Origin: Bacteroidia bacterium
Lineage (GTDB): Bacteria; Bacteroidota; Bacteroidia; AKYH767-A; OLB10
Assembly: GCA_016788165.1 (NCBI GenBank)
Contig: JAEUTH010000013.1
Coordinates: 1-64,000 of the forward strand
Direction of reading: 5' to 3'
DNA: 64,000 nucleotides
The translations under genes and the position numbers were made by a program. The notes below the pieces were generated by a model. The model was not told where the DNA came from. It searched no databases and saw only the letters and a program-made list of their open reading frames with translations. This document shows, piece after piece, positions 3,695 to 44,545 of the stretch (position 1 is the stretch's first letter; every line of letters begins with the position of its first letter).

Positions 3695-4597
3695 CTATGC
3701 TTCCGTATGGGGTGTTGTTCCCAAAATTTCGTGCACGCTCTTTCTAATATTTTTACTGATGGTTAATGTGGGCAAGTCGTTAGCATCTTTGCCAAATGGG
3801 TCTTCAATTTCTTCGGCTATAACTTCTAAGCTGGTTAACACGTAAAAAATAAATGCCACTACCGGTATGCAATAATAGCCCAATGAAAACACCAATGAAA
3901 TGGGCATTGACATCACAAAAAAGAAAATAAATTTTTTAAGAAATGCGCTGTATGAATATGGAATTGGTGTGTTTTTAATTCGCTCGCAAGCACCGCAAAC
4001 GTCAGCAAAATTGTTAAGCTCGGCATTGAGCATAATTAATTGCTCACCACTGATTGTACCGTTCCGATGCAGGTCGTATGTTTTTGTAAAAAGTAAAGAC
4101 GCTATATAGTTTGGCATATGTGAGTGCAAATGCAAATCTTCTTTTTTAAATGTGCCAACATCTACCATATGCGCAGTTTCTCTTAAATTTTGCAAATGCC
4201 CCATTAAAGCAAATGCATAGTTTGAAATTGTTTCGGCAAAAAATATTCTTTCGTTTTGTAATTGGCTGGGCAACAGTGCATTAATTTTAAGCGATAAGTT
4301 GCGTGAACTGTTAACCAGGCTACCCCACAATTTTCTGCCCTCCCACCAGCGCTCATAGGCTGAGTTTATACGAAAAACCAGCAACGTAGAAATAACAAAA
4401 GTAAGCATGGTATGCATTACCGATAAATTTTTAATTCGGTTATCGGCACTTAATTTCAAATAGTCCATTTCAATCCAGGCAACCAGATAACTATAAAAGC
4501 TAATGGTAATTATCAAAGGAAGCAACTGACGAAATGTATCCGTTTTATGAAATCTGAAAATAAAAACGAACCAGTCTTTGGTGTTATACGATATCAT
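3695..4597 (-). CDS. Bestrophin-like (UPF0187) chloride channel family membrane protein
   Basis: A 300-residue integral membrane protein. The signatures AYERWWEGRKLWGSLVNSSR (20 residues) and EEIEDPFGKDANDLP are those of the bacterial bestrophin homologues, which form pentameric anion- or cation-selective channels in the inner membrane. Hydrophobic segments lie near residues 25-45, 60-78 and around 220-255. It is convergent with the esterase-like gene (35 bp apart) and stands alone on the minus strand. A TACTTTTG box lies about 70 nt upstream at 4670-4677. Confidence 0.88.
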   Translation of the reverse strand: MISYNTKDWFVFIFRFHKTDTFRQLLPLIITISFYSYLVAWIEMDYLKLSADNRIKNLSVMHTMLTFVISTLLVFRINSAYERWWEGRKLWGSLVNSSRNLSLKINALLPSQLQNERIFFAETISNYAFALMGHLQNLRETAHMVDVGTFKKEDLHLHSHMPNYIASLLFTKTYDLHRNGTISGEQLIMLNAELNNFADVCGACERIKNTPIPYSYSAFLKKFIFFFVMSMPISLVFSLGYYCIPVVAFIFYVLTSLEVIAEEIEDPFGKDANDLPTLTISKNIRKSVHEILGTTPHTEA

Positions 4598-4669
4598 ACT
4601 TTATGCATTATGGCTACATTAGTTACAGCCATCTTTATCGAATGTACTTACACTAATATTTTACCGGCT

Positions 4670-36831: not shown

Positions 36832-38235
36832 TTAAAAAATAAAAGGTGTGTTACTTTTAAATAAAGGTTGCGAAAAGTTTTTAGTAAGGTTGCTTACCTT
36901 CCAGCGTATGTCATTTACTGCATCCTGTTGTGGCAAAAAATAAACCGTTATATGTTGTGCACAATTTTTTTCTAACAGTTGCGGCTCCATAAAATACATG
37001 CAATTTAATGTTATGTGCCGCCTACGTGCCAGCACTTCTAACTCGTTGGTGTACCAGCCTGATAAGATTATGGCGGGTTGTTTTAACAGGGGCAGCGTAT
37101 CTAAAACGGTATTTATAAAATCTATTTTTTGCAATCGTTTCTCATGCTCGGCAAGCAACGGGCCTTTACATACATCGAATAAAATAGGTTGGCCGGCTAT
37201 TTTTAGTTCAATGCTTCCGGGTTGTTTTGTGCGGTATGCATCCTTTAAGTACAAGCCGCCCAAAAAATTTGAAGCAATTAATAAACAGGTGATTGATGTA
37301 ACATACTTACCATTACCATAAACAGCCCATAAAAAAACTAAAAAAGGTAATGCTACAATTAAGTATGCTGCTTTATGTGGTTGCCATATAAATAACAGCA
37401 AAGCCAAAACCAAAGCCAACCATACAACCATTTTGTTTTGCCTGTTTATAATGCAATTGCCAACTGCTATTTGTATAATCATACCACATGCAGCTACACA
37501 TCCCAATAAACCCCAAACACCAATTGAAGACTTGTACAAAGTTTTTAGCAAATCGGGGAAACCTAAAATATAAGGCACTACATAAACTTTACTATCATAA
37601 TGTATTATGATTTGACTATAGCATATTATAACAGTTACTATAAATACAAGTGCGTAAGTAGTAACCGACTTCCATTTTTTGTGCTCAAAATATAAAAGCA
37701 TTAAAACCGAGGGTAAAAACACTATAGACGTAAAGCGCGATGCAAAAGCCAGTGCCAATAATACAGCAGACAACACCAACCATTGCCGCAGAAAAAAATA
37801 CCAGGCCATAATTATAAACGCCAAGGCCCATACATAGTCCATATTATCGGTTGACTTAATAAAAATAACCGGTATAAATGACAAAGCAGCGGCATACCAA
37901 AAAGCTTTTTTAATTTTATACTGATTCAGTACTGCTGCAAAAAAAACTGCTGCCAATGCACTTAAAAAAGCGGTGCAAATATTTATTACATAATAGGGTG
38001 TAAACGGCATCAGGCCAAAAATAAATTCGGGTATGGGATGCCCAGGGAAACGCGATATTTCAAACCTGCCTGTAAGTGCCATACGTTGCATGGCATTCAT
38101 CATTCCCCAGCTATCTTCCTCGGCACCGTAGCCTGCATTTATAAATGGTATTCGCGATAGAAGGACAATACAAAAAAAGAACAGATATTGCTGTTGGCCA
38201 CCATTTAAAAACTGCTTTAAAAAATTATTTTTCAT
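36832..38235 (-). CDS. Polytopic membrane protein, probable GT-C glycosyltransferase-like
   Basis: A 467-residue protein with about ten hydrophobic helices in the first 330 residues and a soluble C-terminal part. The first loop after helix 1 carries an acidic motif AGYGAEEDSWGMMNAMQ, and ISRFPGHPIPEF follows. Acidic residues in that loop are typical of GT-C enzymes that transfer sugars from lipid-linked donors. No closer family is recognised. It overlaps the end of the S41 protease gene by 11 bp and is probably translationally coupled to it. Confidence 0.6.
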   Translation of the reverse strand: MKNNFLKQFLNGGQQQYLFFFCIVLLSRIPFINAGYGAEEDSWGMMNAMQRMALTGRFEISRFPGHPIPEFIFGLMPFTPYYVINICTAFLSALAAVFFAAVLNQYKIKKAFWYAAALSFIPVIFIKSTDNMDYVWALAFIIMAWYFFLRQWLVLSAVLLALAFASRFTSIVFLPSVLMLLYFEHKKWKSVTTYALVFIVTVIICYSQIIIHYDSKVYVVPYILGFPDLLKTLYKSSIGVWGLLGCVAACGMIIQIAVGNCIINRQNKMVVWLALVLALLLFIWQPHKAAYLIVALPFLVFLWAVYGNGKYVTSITCLLIASNFLGGLYLKDAYRTKQPGSIELKIAGQPILFDVCKGPLLAEHEKRLQKIDFINTVLDTLPLLKQPAIILSGWYTNELEVLARRRHITLNCMYFMEPQLLEKNCAQHITVYFLPQQDAVNDIRWKVSNLTKNFSQPLFKSNTPFIF

Positions 38236-39820
38236 TTAGTATTTGCAGTGCTTTTTTTAAAGCCTTATCATCTTGTTGCAATACTTTATACATTACTTCA
38301 TTGTTATATAACTGCCTGCCCATAATTGCCTTCATTTGATTACTTGTTTGGGTTAAGGCTTTATTAAAGGTTGCGTCATCGGTTGTAATATCTTGTTTTC
38401 GCAAATAGCTTTTCAGCTTTTGAGCAATAGTGGCATCAATTTGAAATGAATTTAAAAAAGCAGTTTCAGAAAATTTGCTTTTTAAAACATTCCGGTTTTC
38501 GTCAACATACTTATAACAAAACTCATTTAAGGCACCGCTTGCATAAAGTATATCTGTAAAGCGATTGCGGCCTGCAGTATCTAATGGCACAAATACATCG
38601 GGCATTATGCCTCCACCGCCATAAACAATTTTGCCTGATGGTGTTTTGTATTTAAGCGAATCGGCAAATTTAATGCTGTCGGCATTTAATAACTCGCCAT
38701 GATCGTACCGGTTGTTTAAATCATTTTCATAATCATCATAACCCTGATTGTATGCTTTTTGAATACTGCGTCCGGTGGGTGTATAATAACGCGCTATGGT
38801 TAAACGAAGTGCACTGCCATCTTGTAACTCGGTTTGTTGTTGCACCAATCCTTTGCCAAACGACCTGCGCCCTACAATGGTGCCTCTGTCCCAATCCTGA
38901 ACGGCACCGGCCACAATTTCGCTGGCCGATGCACTGCCTTCGTCAATAAGTACTACCAGCTTGCCCGTTTCGAATTTACCATTAGCTGTTGCTTCGTAAT
39001 TTTTACGTGGCTGCTTACGACCTGCTGTGTAAACAATCATTTTACCATCGGGCAAAAATTCATCGGCTATTTGCTGAGCTATTTCTAAAAAGCCCCCACC
39101 ATTGCCGCGTAAATCTAAAATGAGTTTTTGCATGCCCTGGCCATTTAATTTTTCGTATGCTTCCATATATTCATCATACGTTTTTTCGCCAAAACGACTC
39201 ATGCGTATATAGCCCGTTTCGCTATCGGCCATGTAAGCGGCATCAACGCTGTAAATGGGGATGTTGCCCCGGGTAATTGTATAGTCAATTAGTTTACCAG
39301 TACCACTACGATGTATTGATAGTTTAACCTTTGTACCTCCCTGACCACGTAGTGTTTTTAAAACTGTATCGTTTGTAATTTGTGCGCCATAAAAATTTTT
39401 GCCATCAACTTTTACAATTCTATCACCGGCCATTAATCCAACAGCAGCCGAAGGGCCTCCGGCAATTACGTTTACTACCATCACGGTATCGCGGCTAATA
39501 TGAAACTCAATACCTATGCCTTCGAAATTACCACGCAAAGGTTCGTTAACTTGTTTGAGTTCGCTTGCAGGTATGTAAGCCGAGTGTGGATCTAATTGCT
39601 GCATCATTTGTTCGATGGTATTATCAACCAACTGCGTAGTGTTTACAGTATCTACATATTCGTTCTGTATAAACTGTATGATGTCGGCAATTTTGCCTGA
39701 GTTTAATTCGCTTCGTTTTATGGATGTATATCCTTGCGGGCTTGGTAATAAAAACAAACCAATAAAAATGCCTGCCACAATTAGCACTGCATAAATTAAA
39801 GGTTGCAAAATGTATTTCAT
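38225..39820 (-). CDS. C-terminal processing peptidase (S41)
   Basis: A 531-residue periplasmic protease anchored by an N-terminal helix (8-25). The PDZ domain (about 90-170) contains GNFEGIGIEF and GPSAAVGLMAGDRIVKVDG. The S41 core has LDLRGNGGG, DEGSASASE with Ser298 and FGKG with Lys323, the Ser-Lys dyad spaced as in Prc. The C-terminal 100 residues are helical. CtpA/Prc enzymes trim C-terminal tails of envelope proteins and regulate wall hydrolases. It heads a run with the GT-C-like and DUF4442 genes. Confidence 0.93.
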   Translation of the reverse strand: MKYILQPLIYAVLIVAGIFIGLFLLPSPQGYTSIKRSELNSGKIADIIQFIQNEYVDTVNTTQLVDNTIEQMMQQLDPHSAYIPASELKQVNEPLRGNFEGIGIEFHISRDTVMVVNVIAGGPSAAVGLMAGDRIVKVDGKNFYGAQITNDTVLKTLRGQGGTKVKLSIHRSGTGKLIDYTITRGNIPIYSVDAAYMADSETGYIRMSRFGEKTYDEYMEAYEKLNGQGMQKLILDLRGNGGGFLEIAQQIADEFLPDGKMIVYTAGRKQPRKNYEATANGKFETGKLVVLIDEGSASASEIVAGAVQDWDRGTIVGRRSFGKGLVQQQTELQDGSALRLTIARYYTPTGRSIQKAYNQGYDDYENDLNNRYDHGELLNADSIKFADSLKYKTPSGKIVYGGGGIMPDVFVPLDTAGRNRFTDILYASGALNEFCYKYVDENRNVLKSKFSETAFLNSFQIDATIAQKLKSYLRKQDITTDDATFNKALTQTSNQMKAIMGRQLYNNEVMYKVLQQDDKALKKALQILNEK

Positions 39821-40423: not shown

Positions 40424-42580
40424 TTATTGCTTTACAATATCTAATTCATTTATAATGTTGGCAGCACCTGCATACTTATCAATTATAAACAATGTATAGC
40501 GAATGTCTAACGTTATGTTTCGGCAAATGCTTGGGTCATAATACACATCGCTCATAGTACCTTCCCAAACGCGGTCATAGTTGGTGCCAATAAGCTGGCC
40601 ATAAGCATTAAGCACCGGGCTGCCACTGTTACCACCCGTAGTATGGTTGGTTGCAATAAAACTTACGGGCACATCGCCATTAACGGCATAAGGACCAAAA
40701 TCTTTTTGTTCTATCAATTGACGCAGTTTTACGGGCATTACATAATCAGCATTACCGGTTTCATTTTTTTCGATGGTGCCTTTTAACCAGGTTTGATAGT
40801 TGTAATAAATACCATTGCGTGGTGTGTAGCCTTTAACCTGGCCATAGGTTACACGCAGTGTGCTGTTACAATCGGGGTACAGTGTTTTTTCTTTATTAAA
40901 CAAACGCAAGGCTTGCATATAGCTGCGTTGTATTTGCGCAATTTGCTGATTTATGGATACCGCTTTTTTCGAAATAACCTGGTCGTACTGGGTGGTTATT
41001 GCATACATTAACTGATAAGCCATATCGTTACTTATTTTTTTGGCATTACTTCGTTTATATGCAGCAAGCATTTTTTCTACCGAGGTATAGTTAGTCATAA
41101 ACGATTTTTTAAATACATCGGCTGCCCATTTATTATAGTTGCCTGCATATTTTCCATATAACGTTTTATCAAAGTACTCAGGGCGGTATGCCTGCGCTAC
41201 ACTATCGCCATACATTTTAAGCATGGCTGCAAAAATTTCTTCATCAATTTGGGTACGATATTTTTTAAACCACGGCTCTGAGTTTTTTAAAACTTTATGG
41301 GCTTCGGCTGTTAGTACACTATCGGCAACGCTATCGGTACTGCTAAGGTTTACCAGTTTGGTATAAAGTTTTGCATAGTTCATCAGTTCAATACCCATAA
41401 CGGCTTCGTTGGTATAATCTACAGCATTGGATATAGGTTTGTATTGTGCATAAGCCATTTTAAAATCAGACAATATATTTGTGTATGGTTTGCCTTCGGT
41501 ATTCATAGTTGTCCAATACTGAAAATTACTTTCCTGTTTACGTTTTAGTTGCACCACATTGTTTTTACGCAGTCCGGTCATTTCGCCCTTCCACTTTTTA
41601 TGATAGTTAGCTAAGTTTCTGATTTTAGGGGCATAATAAAGTGTAACGGTATCGTTTCCGGCCATATACTTTTCGGTAATATTTATACGCATTTCGCGAA
41701 TGGCAACACGGTTTAAATCCTGAATATCCTGAATCAACTCTACACCATCGCTGGGCAAGTATTGTTGTGTGCGACCCGGAAAACCGTACACCATTGTAAA
41801 GTCGTTTTCAGTTATACCGGCTGTACTAATTTGTAAGTGTTTGCGCGGCACAAATGGTACATTATTCTTATTGTAAGCAGCGGGTTTATTATCGGGGCCG
41901 GCATAAATTCTGAACAAACTAAAATCACCGGTATGGCGTGGCCAAATCCAGTTATCGGTTTCTTCGCCAAAGTTGCCAATGGCATTTGGGGGTGCGCCTA
42001 CCAAACGCAAATCTTTAAATGTTTCGCTTACAAATAATATAAAATCATTACCACTGTAAAAAGGCTTAACCGATGCTTCGTAGTGTGTACCGGCAATAGC
42101 TTTACTTTCAATTGCTGCAGCTAAACTTTTTATTTTGCTGTTACGTTCGGCCTCTGTCATACCTTGGGTAAGGTAAGGTGCAATTTGTGCGGTAACATCT
42201 TCAATCCTGATTATAAAAGTGGCTGTAAGACCCGGTGCCGGCAACTCTTGTGTTTGATTATAGGCCCAGTACCCGTTTTTTAAATAATCATTTTCAATGG
42301 TACTTAATCCGGCAATGGCACCAAAACCACAGTGATGGTTAGTAAGCAGTAAACCTTGTTTCGAAATAATTTCGCCTGTACATCCGCCTCCAAATAAAAC
42401 TACAGCATCTTTTAACGATGTGTTGTTTACATCATAAATGGCTTCGGCACTTATTTTAAGTCCGCGGTTTTGCATTTGCGCTTCCATCTGTTTTAACATA
42501 ATAGGCAGCCACATGCCTTCTTCGGCATAAACATTTAAAACGCCTATATAAAACATGCACCATACAAGTAGTTTCTTCAT
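40424..42580 (-). CDS. S46 dipeptidyl-peptidase, DPP11-like
   Basis: A 718-residue periplasmic serine peptidase with a signal peptide ending NVYAEEG. The N-terminal residues GMWLPIML are the conserved S46 start, with catalytic His in LLTNHHCGFG and catalytic Ser652 in GGNSGSPVLNAYG. Eighteen residues after the Ser comes Arg670 (TNYDRVWEG); in the family this position is Arg in DPP11 (removes dipeptides ending in Asp or Glu) and Gly in DPP7, so acidic specificity is predicted. Upstream lies an exact 60-bp tandem duplication that doubles a promoter-like box. Confidence 0.92.
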   Translation of the reverse strand: MKKLLVWCMFYIGVLNVYAEEGMWLPIMLKQMEAQMQNRGLKISAEAIYDVNNTSLKDAVVLFGGGCTGEIISKQGLLLTNHHCGFGAIAGLSTIENDYLKNGYWAYNQTQELPAPGLTATFIIRIEDVTAQIAPYLTQGMTEAERNSKIKSLAAAIESKAIAGTHYEASVKPFYSGNDFILFVSETFKDLRLVGAPPNAIGNFGEETDNWIWPRHTGDFSLFRIYAGPDNKPAAYNKNNVPFVPRKHLQISTAGITENDFTMVYGFPGRTQQYLPSDGVELIQDIQDLNRVAIREMRINITEKYMAGNDTVTLYYAPKIRNLANYHKKWKGEMTGLRKNNVVQLKRKQESNFQYWTTMNTEGKPYTNILSDFKMAYAQYKPISNAVDYTNEAVMGIELMNYAKLYTKLVNLSSTDSVADSVLTAEAHKVLKNSEPWFKKYRTQIDEEIFAAMLKMYGDSVAQAYRPEYFDKTLYGKYAGNYNKWAADVFKKSFMTNYTSVEKMLAAYKRSNAKKISNDMAYQLMYAITTQYDQVISKKAVSINQQIAQIQRSYMQALRLFNKEKTLYPDCNSTLRVTYGQVKGYTPRNGIYYNYQTWLKGTIEKNETGNADYVMPVKLRQLIEQKDFGPYAVNGDVPVSFIATNHTTGGNSGSPVLNAYGQLIGTNYDRVWEGTMSDVYYDPSICRNITLDIRYTLFIIDKYAGAANIINELDIVKQ

Positions 42581-42597
42581 AGCAAATAAAAATTAAG

Positions 42598-42718
42598 TAA
42601 CGCTGGCGAATGTAACCAAATGCAAAAACCTACTTACTAAATATCGTTAAACTTCAATAACGCTGGCGAATGTAACCAAATGCAAAAACCTACTTACTAA
42701 ATATCGTTAAACTTCAAT
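42598..42718. repeat. Perfect 60-bp tandem duplication
   Basis: The stretch 42598-42658 recurs at 42658-42718 with a 60-nt period and no mismatch, giving about two copies. It begins TAACGCTGGCGAATGTAACC in each copy. It lies 17 bp upstream of the S46 peptidase start and carries no reading frame of note. Perfect identity implies a recent event, or an assembly error. Confidence 0.9.
42607..42674 (-). promoter_or_regulatory. Doubled promoter-like -7 boxes before the S46 gene
   Basis: Each copy of the tandem duplication contains TACATTCG followed by GCC on the minus strand (42607-42614 and 42667-42674), the same TAnnTTCG form seen before mdh. The nearer box would start transcription about 20 nt before the S46 ATG. 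No clear TTG element lies at the usual distance. Confidence 0.4.
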
Positions 42719-42782
42719 TTAATTGGCATTACGTTTTACCATCTGCTAATTTGAACAAACATATAAGACCCTAAAAAATAAA

Positions 42783-42813
42783 TTGATAATAGTAGATATA
42801 ACATGTAGGTTTG
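42783..42813 (+). promoter_or_regulatory. Promoter of recJ
   Basis: TTG (42783-42785) is followed after 20 nt by TAGGTTTG (42806-42813), an exact match to the Bacteroidota sigma-A consensus in both boxes and spacing. Transcription would begin roughly 20 nt before the recJ ATG. Confidence 0.65.
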
Positions 42814-42841
42814 TACACCACCATAATATCACAACCAATAC

Positions 42842-44545
42842 ATGCACAAGCGCTGGAACCTGAATCAGAATTACCAACAAGCACAAGTGGATGCATTGCA
42901 GCAACAATTAAAAATACACCCATCGTTGTGCAAACTATTGGTACAACGCGGTATAACTACTTTTGAAGAAGCACGGCAATTTTTCAGGCCTTCGCTATCA
43001 CAACTGCACGATCCGTTTTTGATGAAAGATATGGATGTTGCCGTTGCCCGGGTAAATAAAGCATTAACCAACCAGGAAAAAATTTTGGTTTATGGCGATT
43101 ATGATGTTGATGGTACTACGGCTGTTTCGTTATTGTATTTATTCTTAAAAAGTTTGTATGCAAAGGTTGCTTTTTACATACCCGACAGGTATCATGAAGG
43201 TTATGGCGTATCGTTTAAAGGTGTAGAATTTGCACAGCAAAACGGATATACATTAATAATTGCCTTAGACTGTGGTATTAAAGCACATGATAAAGTTGCC
43301 TTAGCCAATAGCTACGGAATTGATTTTATTATTTGCGACCACCACAGGCCCGGAAATGATTTACCAGAGGCATTGGCTATTTTAGACCCTAAGCGCAACG
43401 ATTGCCCTTATCCTTTCAAAGAACTATCGGGTTGTGGTGTAGGCTTTAAATTAGTACAGGCAATTGCGCAAAACAATCACATCCCTTTTGCACAAATAGA
43501 ACCTTATTTAGATTTGGTTGCCGTTAGCATTGCTGCCGACATTGTAGATATTATGGGCGAAAACCGGGTGTTAGCCCATTTCGGTTTAAAACTGCTAAAT
43601 ACACATCCGCGCTTTGGTATAAATGCACTCATCAATTTATCAAAAGTAAGCCGCGAACTTTCTATTAGCGATGTGGTATTTTTTATTGCACCACGCATAA
43701 ACGCTGCCGGACGTATAGAAAGCGGCAACCGTGCTGTTGATTTACTTACTGCCAACGATTTTGAAACAGCACGTATTATATGTGACGAAATTAACGAGCA
43801 CAATACCTACCGCAAAGAGTTAGATACCGACATAACGGAACAAGCGCTACAGCAAATTGAAAACGACTTAACTTTTAGTGACCGCAAATCTACTGTAGTA
43901 TATTCGGCCGAGTGGCATAAAGGTGTTATTGGTATTGTTGCATCGCGCCTAACCGATAAATATTACAGGCCAACCGTAGTAATGACACAAACAAACGGCC
44001 ATGTAGCAGGTAGTGCCCGCAGCGTTAAAGATTTTGATGTATATAATGCCATCGAAGCCTGTGCCGATTTGTTAGACCAGTTTGGTGGCCACATGTACGC
44101 TGCAGGTCTTACCATGAAAATAGAAAATGTAGATGCATTTATTCAAAAATTCGAAACCATAGTTAGCAGCACTATCGAAGACAGAATGCTTATCCGTGAA
44201 GTTGATATTGACGATGCGTTGTTGTTAGATGACATAAACGATTCGTTTTACCGCATACTCAAACAATTTGCACCTTTTGGCCCGGGCAATATGAATCCCA
44301 CATTTATTTCAACCGGATTATATAACTCAGGCTCATCGCGCATTGTTGCCAATAAACACCTGAAGTTGGGACTTATGCAAAAAGGATGTAATCATAAAAA
44401 AGATGGTATCGCATTTAATATGGCCGATTGCTTTTATTTGATCGAAAACACGCAACCATTTAGTATTGCATACCATATTGAAGAAAACAGTTTTAATAAT
44501 AAAGTAACGTTGCAGCTAAATATTAAAGACATAAAGGCCGATTAG
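42842..44545 (+). CDS. recJ: Single-stranded-DNA-specific exonuclease RecJ
   Basis: A 567-residue DHH-family nuclease that degrades single-stranded DNA 5' to 3' in recombination and mismatch repair. The metal motifs are DYDVDGTT (86-93), ALDCG and CDHH (165-168) in the DHH domain; the DHHA1 part shows KGVIGIVASRL and a FGGHMYAAGL motif; an OB fold closes the protein (FAPFGPGNMNPTF, then the beta-rich tail). The length is normal. It probably shares a transcript with the asparaginase gene 38 bp downstream. Confidence 0.94.
   Translation: MHKRWNLNQNYQQAQVDALQQQLKIHPSLCKLLVQRGITTFEEARQFFRPSLSQLHDPFLMKDMDVAVARVNKALTNQEKILVYGDYDVDGTTAVSLLYLFLKSLYAKVAFYIPDRYHEGYGVSFKGVEFAQQNGYTLIIALDCGIKAHDKVALANSYGIDFIICDHHRPGNDLPEALAILDPKRNDCPYPFKELSGCGVGFKLVQAIAQNNHIPFAQIEPYLDLVAVSIAADIVDIMGENRVLAHFGLKLLNTHPRFGINALINLSKVSRELSISDVVFFIAPRINAAGRIESGNRAVDLLTANDFETARIICDEINEHNTYRKELDTDITEQALQQIENDLTFSDRKSTVVYSAEWHKGVIGIVASRLTDKYYRPTVVMTQTNGHVAGSARSVKDFDVYNAIEACADLLDQFGGHMYAAGLTMKIENVDAFIQKFETIVSSTIEDRMLIREVDIDDALLLDDINDSFYRILKQFAPFGPGNMNPTFISTGLYNSGSSRIVANKHLKLGLMQKGCNHKKDGIAFNMADCFYLIENTQPFSIAYHIEENSFNNKVTLQLNIKDIKAD

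Follow-up and report, generated by a model that had tools for sequence, protein, structure and literature searches.

Has an exact duplication of a short intergenic segment given a peptidase gene a second promoter, or is it a product of assembly? This question is raised by the stretch analysed here, the first 64,000 nucleotides of contig JAEUTH010000013.1 of a Bacteroidia bacterium (assembly GCA_016788165.1; hereafter the window), in which a 60-bp unit occurs twice, head to tail, directly ahead of a gene for an S46 family peptidase. A sequence-only reading of the window had proposed that the duplication is either recent or an assembly artefact, and that it may add a second promoter and raise or phase-vary expression. 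The duplication was found to be real and the promoter reading reasonable, the event itself being an ordinary one.

The 60-bp duplication and its predicted promoters

When the whole window was analysed with Tandem Repeats Finder (TRF), a single array was reported at 42598-42718, with a period of 60, 2.0 copies, 100% match and no indels. Direct comparison of the units 42598-42657 and 42658-42717 confirmed that they are identical base for base, as had been claimed. The matching run is 61 bases long, including an extra T (42718) after the second copy, and with a run of this length the duplication cannot be ascribed to chance. Between the array and the S46 start codon (42580, minus strand) lie 17 bp. 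No further exact tandem array with a period of 15-600 was found in 313,995 bases, which comprise the window and 15 sampled stretches (L026-L040), or about one tenth of the 3.34-Mb genome. In L029, the one sampled stretch that was also analysed with TRF, a 15-bp array with 74% match was reported. For the initial 30 bases of the unit, no third site exists in the assembly with up to 3 mismatches allowed, and a search of 331 bases around the unit against its own genome returned only the self-match. No match was detected between 42300-43100 and plasmids, or between the first 32 bases of the unit and viral contigs in an exact search.

Each copy carries the octamer TACATTCG on the minus strand, as the sequence-only reading had noted, and the near box is located at -34 relative to the S46 start. 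Bacteroidota promoters consist of a -7 element, TAnnTTTG, and a -33 element, TTTG, the latter being described as not essential yet required for full activity in PMC2483708. In PMC9723704, the -7 box of F. psychrophilum is placed between -12 and -5, and the median 5' untranslated region (UTR) is given as 24 bp in this species and 32 bp in B. thetaiotaomicron. With the F. psychrophilum spacing, the near box is well placed and would alone be enough for the S46 gene, with a predicted leader of 22 nt. In each unit the box is preceded by 43 bp and followed by 9 bp, and any promoter located there has therefore been doubled almost whole.

The arrangement was probably produced by a slippage duplication that gave the S46 gene tandem identical promoters. 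One event of replication slippage, probably recent, would have doubled 60 bp between the divergent S46 and recJ genes, and the S46 gene would now be served by two identical promoters at a spacing of 60 bp. The near promoter would keep its short leader, and the far one, which has the same box, would act as a second promoter and add transcripts with an 82-nt leader. An increased S46 expression from the doubled promoter is plausible; the outcome would be neutral or a mild rise, modest at most. The copy number may return to one by slippage, but there is no hint of a programmed switch.

No upstream ATG was found in the 82-nt leader. Folding of the leader together with the first 45 coding bases gave -21.4 kcal/mol for the far promoter vs -8.0 kcal/mol for the near one. 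The extra structure sits in the leader, the hairpin at the coding start being identical in both. Given this added structure, the long-leader transcripts could be translated differently. A hairpin within the unit was also considered and rejected: as single-stranded DNA it folds no better than shuffles (z-score 1.23; 186 of 200 shuffles fold as well).

As for the origin of the array, the two breakpoints have one base (T) in common, and the nine bases before them match at 6 of 9 positions. Of 13,055 local pairs, 2.8% match at least as well (2.2% of 12,864 after excluding pairs 60 apart), which points weakly to slippage with partial misalignment. The other direct repeats reported in 42480-42860 were of only 10 and 11 bases. 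The proposed recent age fits the zero divergence between the copies, although none of the relatives compared is close. The genus search returned this genome only. Tandem copies can also remain identical via repeated loss and gain. Duplications like this one are a frequent type of minor mutation.

The box class is enriched ahead of genes

In order to place the box in its genomic context, open reading frames (ORFs) in the window and stretches L026-L040 were called with a crude procedure (minimum length of 300 bases, priority to longer frames, and the first ATG inside 150 bases as start). A total of 212 genes was obtained, 108 of them with at least 80 bp of upstream intergenic DNA (107 without the S46 gene). 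Over the 100 bp preceding these 108 genes, 34 sense sites of the wider pattern TAnnTTYG were counted. When the S46 gene was left out, 32 remained in 107 regions (2.99/kb). Letter shuffles of the upstream regions (50) gave a mean of 9.5 sites and a maximum of 17. The density was 0.93/kb on the reverse strand of these regions (10 sites) and 0.76/kb on the sense strand of coding DNA (205 sites in 268,008 bases). The boxes were densest 31-50 bp ahead of the start codon, where 14 of the 39 sense boxes within 150 bp were located (S46 gene left out). These results support that the TAnnTTYG class acts like the Bacteroidota -7 element in this genome, in line with the promoter-like character that had been attributed to the box.

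The two forms of the box occur almost equally upstream in the 107 regions without the S46 gene. TAnnTTCG was found 15 times on the sense strand (17 with the S46 gene) and never on the reverse strand, with 3.0 sites in shuffles; TAnnTTTG was found 17 times on the sense strand and 10 times on the reverse strand, with 6.5 in shuffles. The TTCG form is possibly a lineage variant of the -7 element. The sequence-only reading had described the box as the form seen at other starts in the window. This holds for the wider class, which 12 of the 50 window ORFs (S46 gene included) have in the 120 bp upstream of them, but it is somewhat overstated for the exact octamer, which has a single further site (4639-4646), upstream of the gene at 3695-4597.

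Several observations weigh against a promoter at this particular site. No TTG is present 16-25 bases ahead of the S46 box, where a -33 element would be sought; over boxes generally, a TTG at this distance is weakly enriched (9/28 vs 20% at random positions). On a matrix derived from 28 other boxes the score of the S46 box is ordinary: it was equalled or beaten on the sense strand in 37 of the 108 upstream regions (S46 and training boxes included) and on the reverse strand in 6 of the 108, and 53 such sites were counted in the window. A further minus-strand box, TATGTTTG, lies outside the array. Across the window as a whole, TAnnTTYG occurs less often than expected from shuffles (114 vs 142), which means that the enrichment is positional.

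The S46 loci of 23 relatives were also compared, 19 from the search of 41 genomes described below and 4 from named genomes, with start codons picked by a simple rule. In 13 of the 19 and 2 of the 4 named relatives, the 200 bp upstream of the S46 gene contained no TAnnTT(T/C/G)G, which is a further point against the promoter. The pattern was present within this distance in the other 6 of the 19 (L002, L003, L007, L008, L011 and L012, at -22 to -37) and in the other two named relatives (L022 at -35 and L025 at -145).

The poor -33 region, the ordinary score and the box beyond the array would favour a neutral duplication, in which the box does not serve the S46 gene as a promoter and transcription is unaffected. 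Against this, the box class is enriched on the sense strand at the right distance from start codons, and the interval from the near copy to the S46 gene is free of other TAnnTTYG boxes. A neutral duplication is thus considered rather unlikely, and a doubling of the S46 promoter is the preferred reading.

Assembly and copy number

A one-copy genome in which the assembler doubled the unit would also account for the array. The assembly is a draft of 46 contigs, the copies are perfectly identical, and the period of 60 is near 59, one of the word lengths of MEGAHIT. The contig ends were informative in this respect. A comparison of the terminal 300 bases revealed 29 pairs of contig ends with an overlap of exactly 141 bases, oriented head to tail or matching at the same end. 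Apart from these, overlaps of at least 15 bases had lengths of 136, 124, 78, 49 and 49 only. Three contigs were left out of this comparison (C32, C40 and C41, of 1687, 1869 and 2169 bases), because the 300 bases at either end are all N. With MEGAHIT and metaSPAdes, contig ends overlap by the largest word length used, and a last assembly word length of 141 is strongly indicated. A MEGAHIT word-length list ending at 141, and also holding 59, is given in PMC10914622, and we infer that the assembler was MEGAHIT.

The 121-bp array together with 20 flanking bases fits inside a 141-base word. Since such words span the whole array, it is taken to be real, and a one-copy genome should give the assembly graph no loop. 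In addition, a joining error at a word length of 59 should yield a period of 59 rather than 60 with a 61-base run, and no other exact array was found in the bases sampled. It must be considered that such assemblers hand contigs from smaller words to later rounds, so the 141-base words need not all come from single reads. An artefact is very unlikely on these grounds, and the two copies are regarded as real in most sequenced cells. The artefact part of the earlier alternative is thereby largely answered. The approach is of wider use, as contig-end overlaps reveal the word length of the assembler and so help to judge a suspected artefact from the assembly itself. In this genome, repeats much shorter than 141 bp should have been resolved, which helps to judge other short-repeat findings.

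Phase variation, in which slippage among one, two or more promoters alters S46 expression, is highly unlikely: the array has two long units only, the contig runs through it unbroken as two copies, and a scan of the S46 loci of the 23 relatives, blind to diverged arrays, detected no exact tandem array. A 47-base "array" in relative L017 was a run of N and was dismissed. Known phase-variable promoters usually rely on short-unit repeats or inversions, and the phase variation proposed earlier finds no support here, with no sign of copy-number change in one genome. It is extremely unlikely that the array would be an adaptive, slippage-reversible dosage switch for a putative Asp/Glu-specific dipeptidyl peptidase; if true, a whole 60-bp promoter module would be gained and lost, tuning peptide foraging.

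The S46 gene, its neighbours and known systems

The features of the locus are collected in Table 1. The S46 protein shows the Peptidase_S46 domain (PF10459, E 2.5e-213) over residues 19-714. Its nearest solved relatives by sequence carry the name Asp/Glu-specific dipeptidyl peptidase (5jxf, E 2e-198). Its Asn, Asp and Arg align with Asn670, Asp672 and Arg673 of P. gingivalis dipeptidyl peptidase 11 (PgDPP11), and its NYDR aligns with the NFDR of two solved DPP11s. Arg673 corresponds to Gly in PgDPP7. According to PMC6753110, it is crucial for Asp/Glu specificity, and Ser occupies this position in some DPP11s. The NCBIfam DPP7 model NF053519 gave 616.3 bits, below its curated cut-off of 1200. 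Because of the solved DPP11 relatives, the three aligned positions and this low DPP7 score, the label DPP11-like given to the gene is appropriate; cleavage after Asp/Glu is predicted for the product. A second S46 peptidase, 43% identical to this protein, is encoded elsewhere in the genome (contig C29:33510-35654).

Table 1. Coordinates of the array, the boxes and the flanking genes in the window
Feature	Position	Strand	Basis	Remarks
Near copy of the 60-bp unit	42598..42657	-	TRF and direct comparison	The copy closer to the S46 gene
Far copy of the 60-bp unit	42658..42717	-	TRF and direct comparison	Identical to near copy; base 42718 matches too
Near -7-like box TACATTCG	42607..42614	-	Inferred from F. 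psychrophilum spacing	Predicted start ~42602; predicted 5' UTR ~22 nt
Far -7-like box TACATTCG	42667..42674	-	Inferred from F. psychrophilum spacing	Predicted start ~42662; predicted 5' UTR ~82 nt, without ATG
Further box TATGTTTG	42756..42763	-	Pattern match	183 bp ahead of S46 start, beyond the array; possible alternative promoter
S46 dipeptidyl peptidase, DPP11-like	40424..42580	-	Pfam and alignment	718 aa; downstream of the duplication
recJ	42842..44545	+	TIGR00644 above cut-off	Divergent neighbour; start region outside the duplication
-7-like box TAGGTTTG	42806..42813	+	Pattern match	Starts 36 bp ahead of recJ; not duplicated

An S46 homologue was found in 36 of the 41 genomes searched (own included), and all 24 family genomes carry one. 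In the 23 family genomes besides this one, identity to the S46 protein is no higher than 52% over the full length, with 68% for a 131-residue fragment. A tblastn search with RecJ (E 1e-5) gave no match in the loci of the 23 relatives, where the upstream flanks covered 1.5 kb in the 19 and about 3-6 kb in the 4 named ones, so the S46-recJ pairing is not conserved among them. In one relative, a homologue of the window S41 peptidase (38225-39820) lies within 1.5 kb of the S46 gene (L020:4399-5136, 52% identity).

The locus offers a clean natural case of what is probably a doubled promoter, in which the summing of tandem promoters in Bacteroidota could be studied on a small scale. A literature search on duplicated bacterial promoters returned nothing directly relevant, which does not indicate that none is in print.

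Compared with the promoters of the Bacteroidota primary sigma factor, the S46 box has C at the seventh base (TTCG vs TTTG) and a poor -33, but it is an octamer of equal layout at the usual distance from the start codon. The protein resembles DPP11 in having Peptidase_S46 across its length and in the Asn, Asp and Arg that correspond to PgDPP11 residues 670, 672 and 673; it differs in its limited full-length identity to the homologues found in all searches, at most 52%, with 68% for the 131-residue fragment. A tandem repeat reportedly occurs in the fungal cyp51A promoter, where it is said to be drug-selected and linked to raised expression, whereas the S46 array is known from sequence alone. In both cases, a promoter segment, putative in the S46 array, has been copied exactly head-to-tail ahead of one gene.
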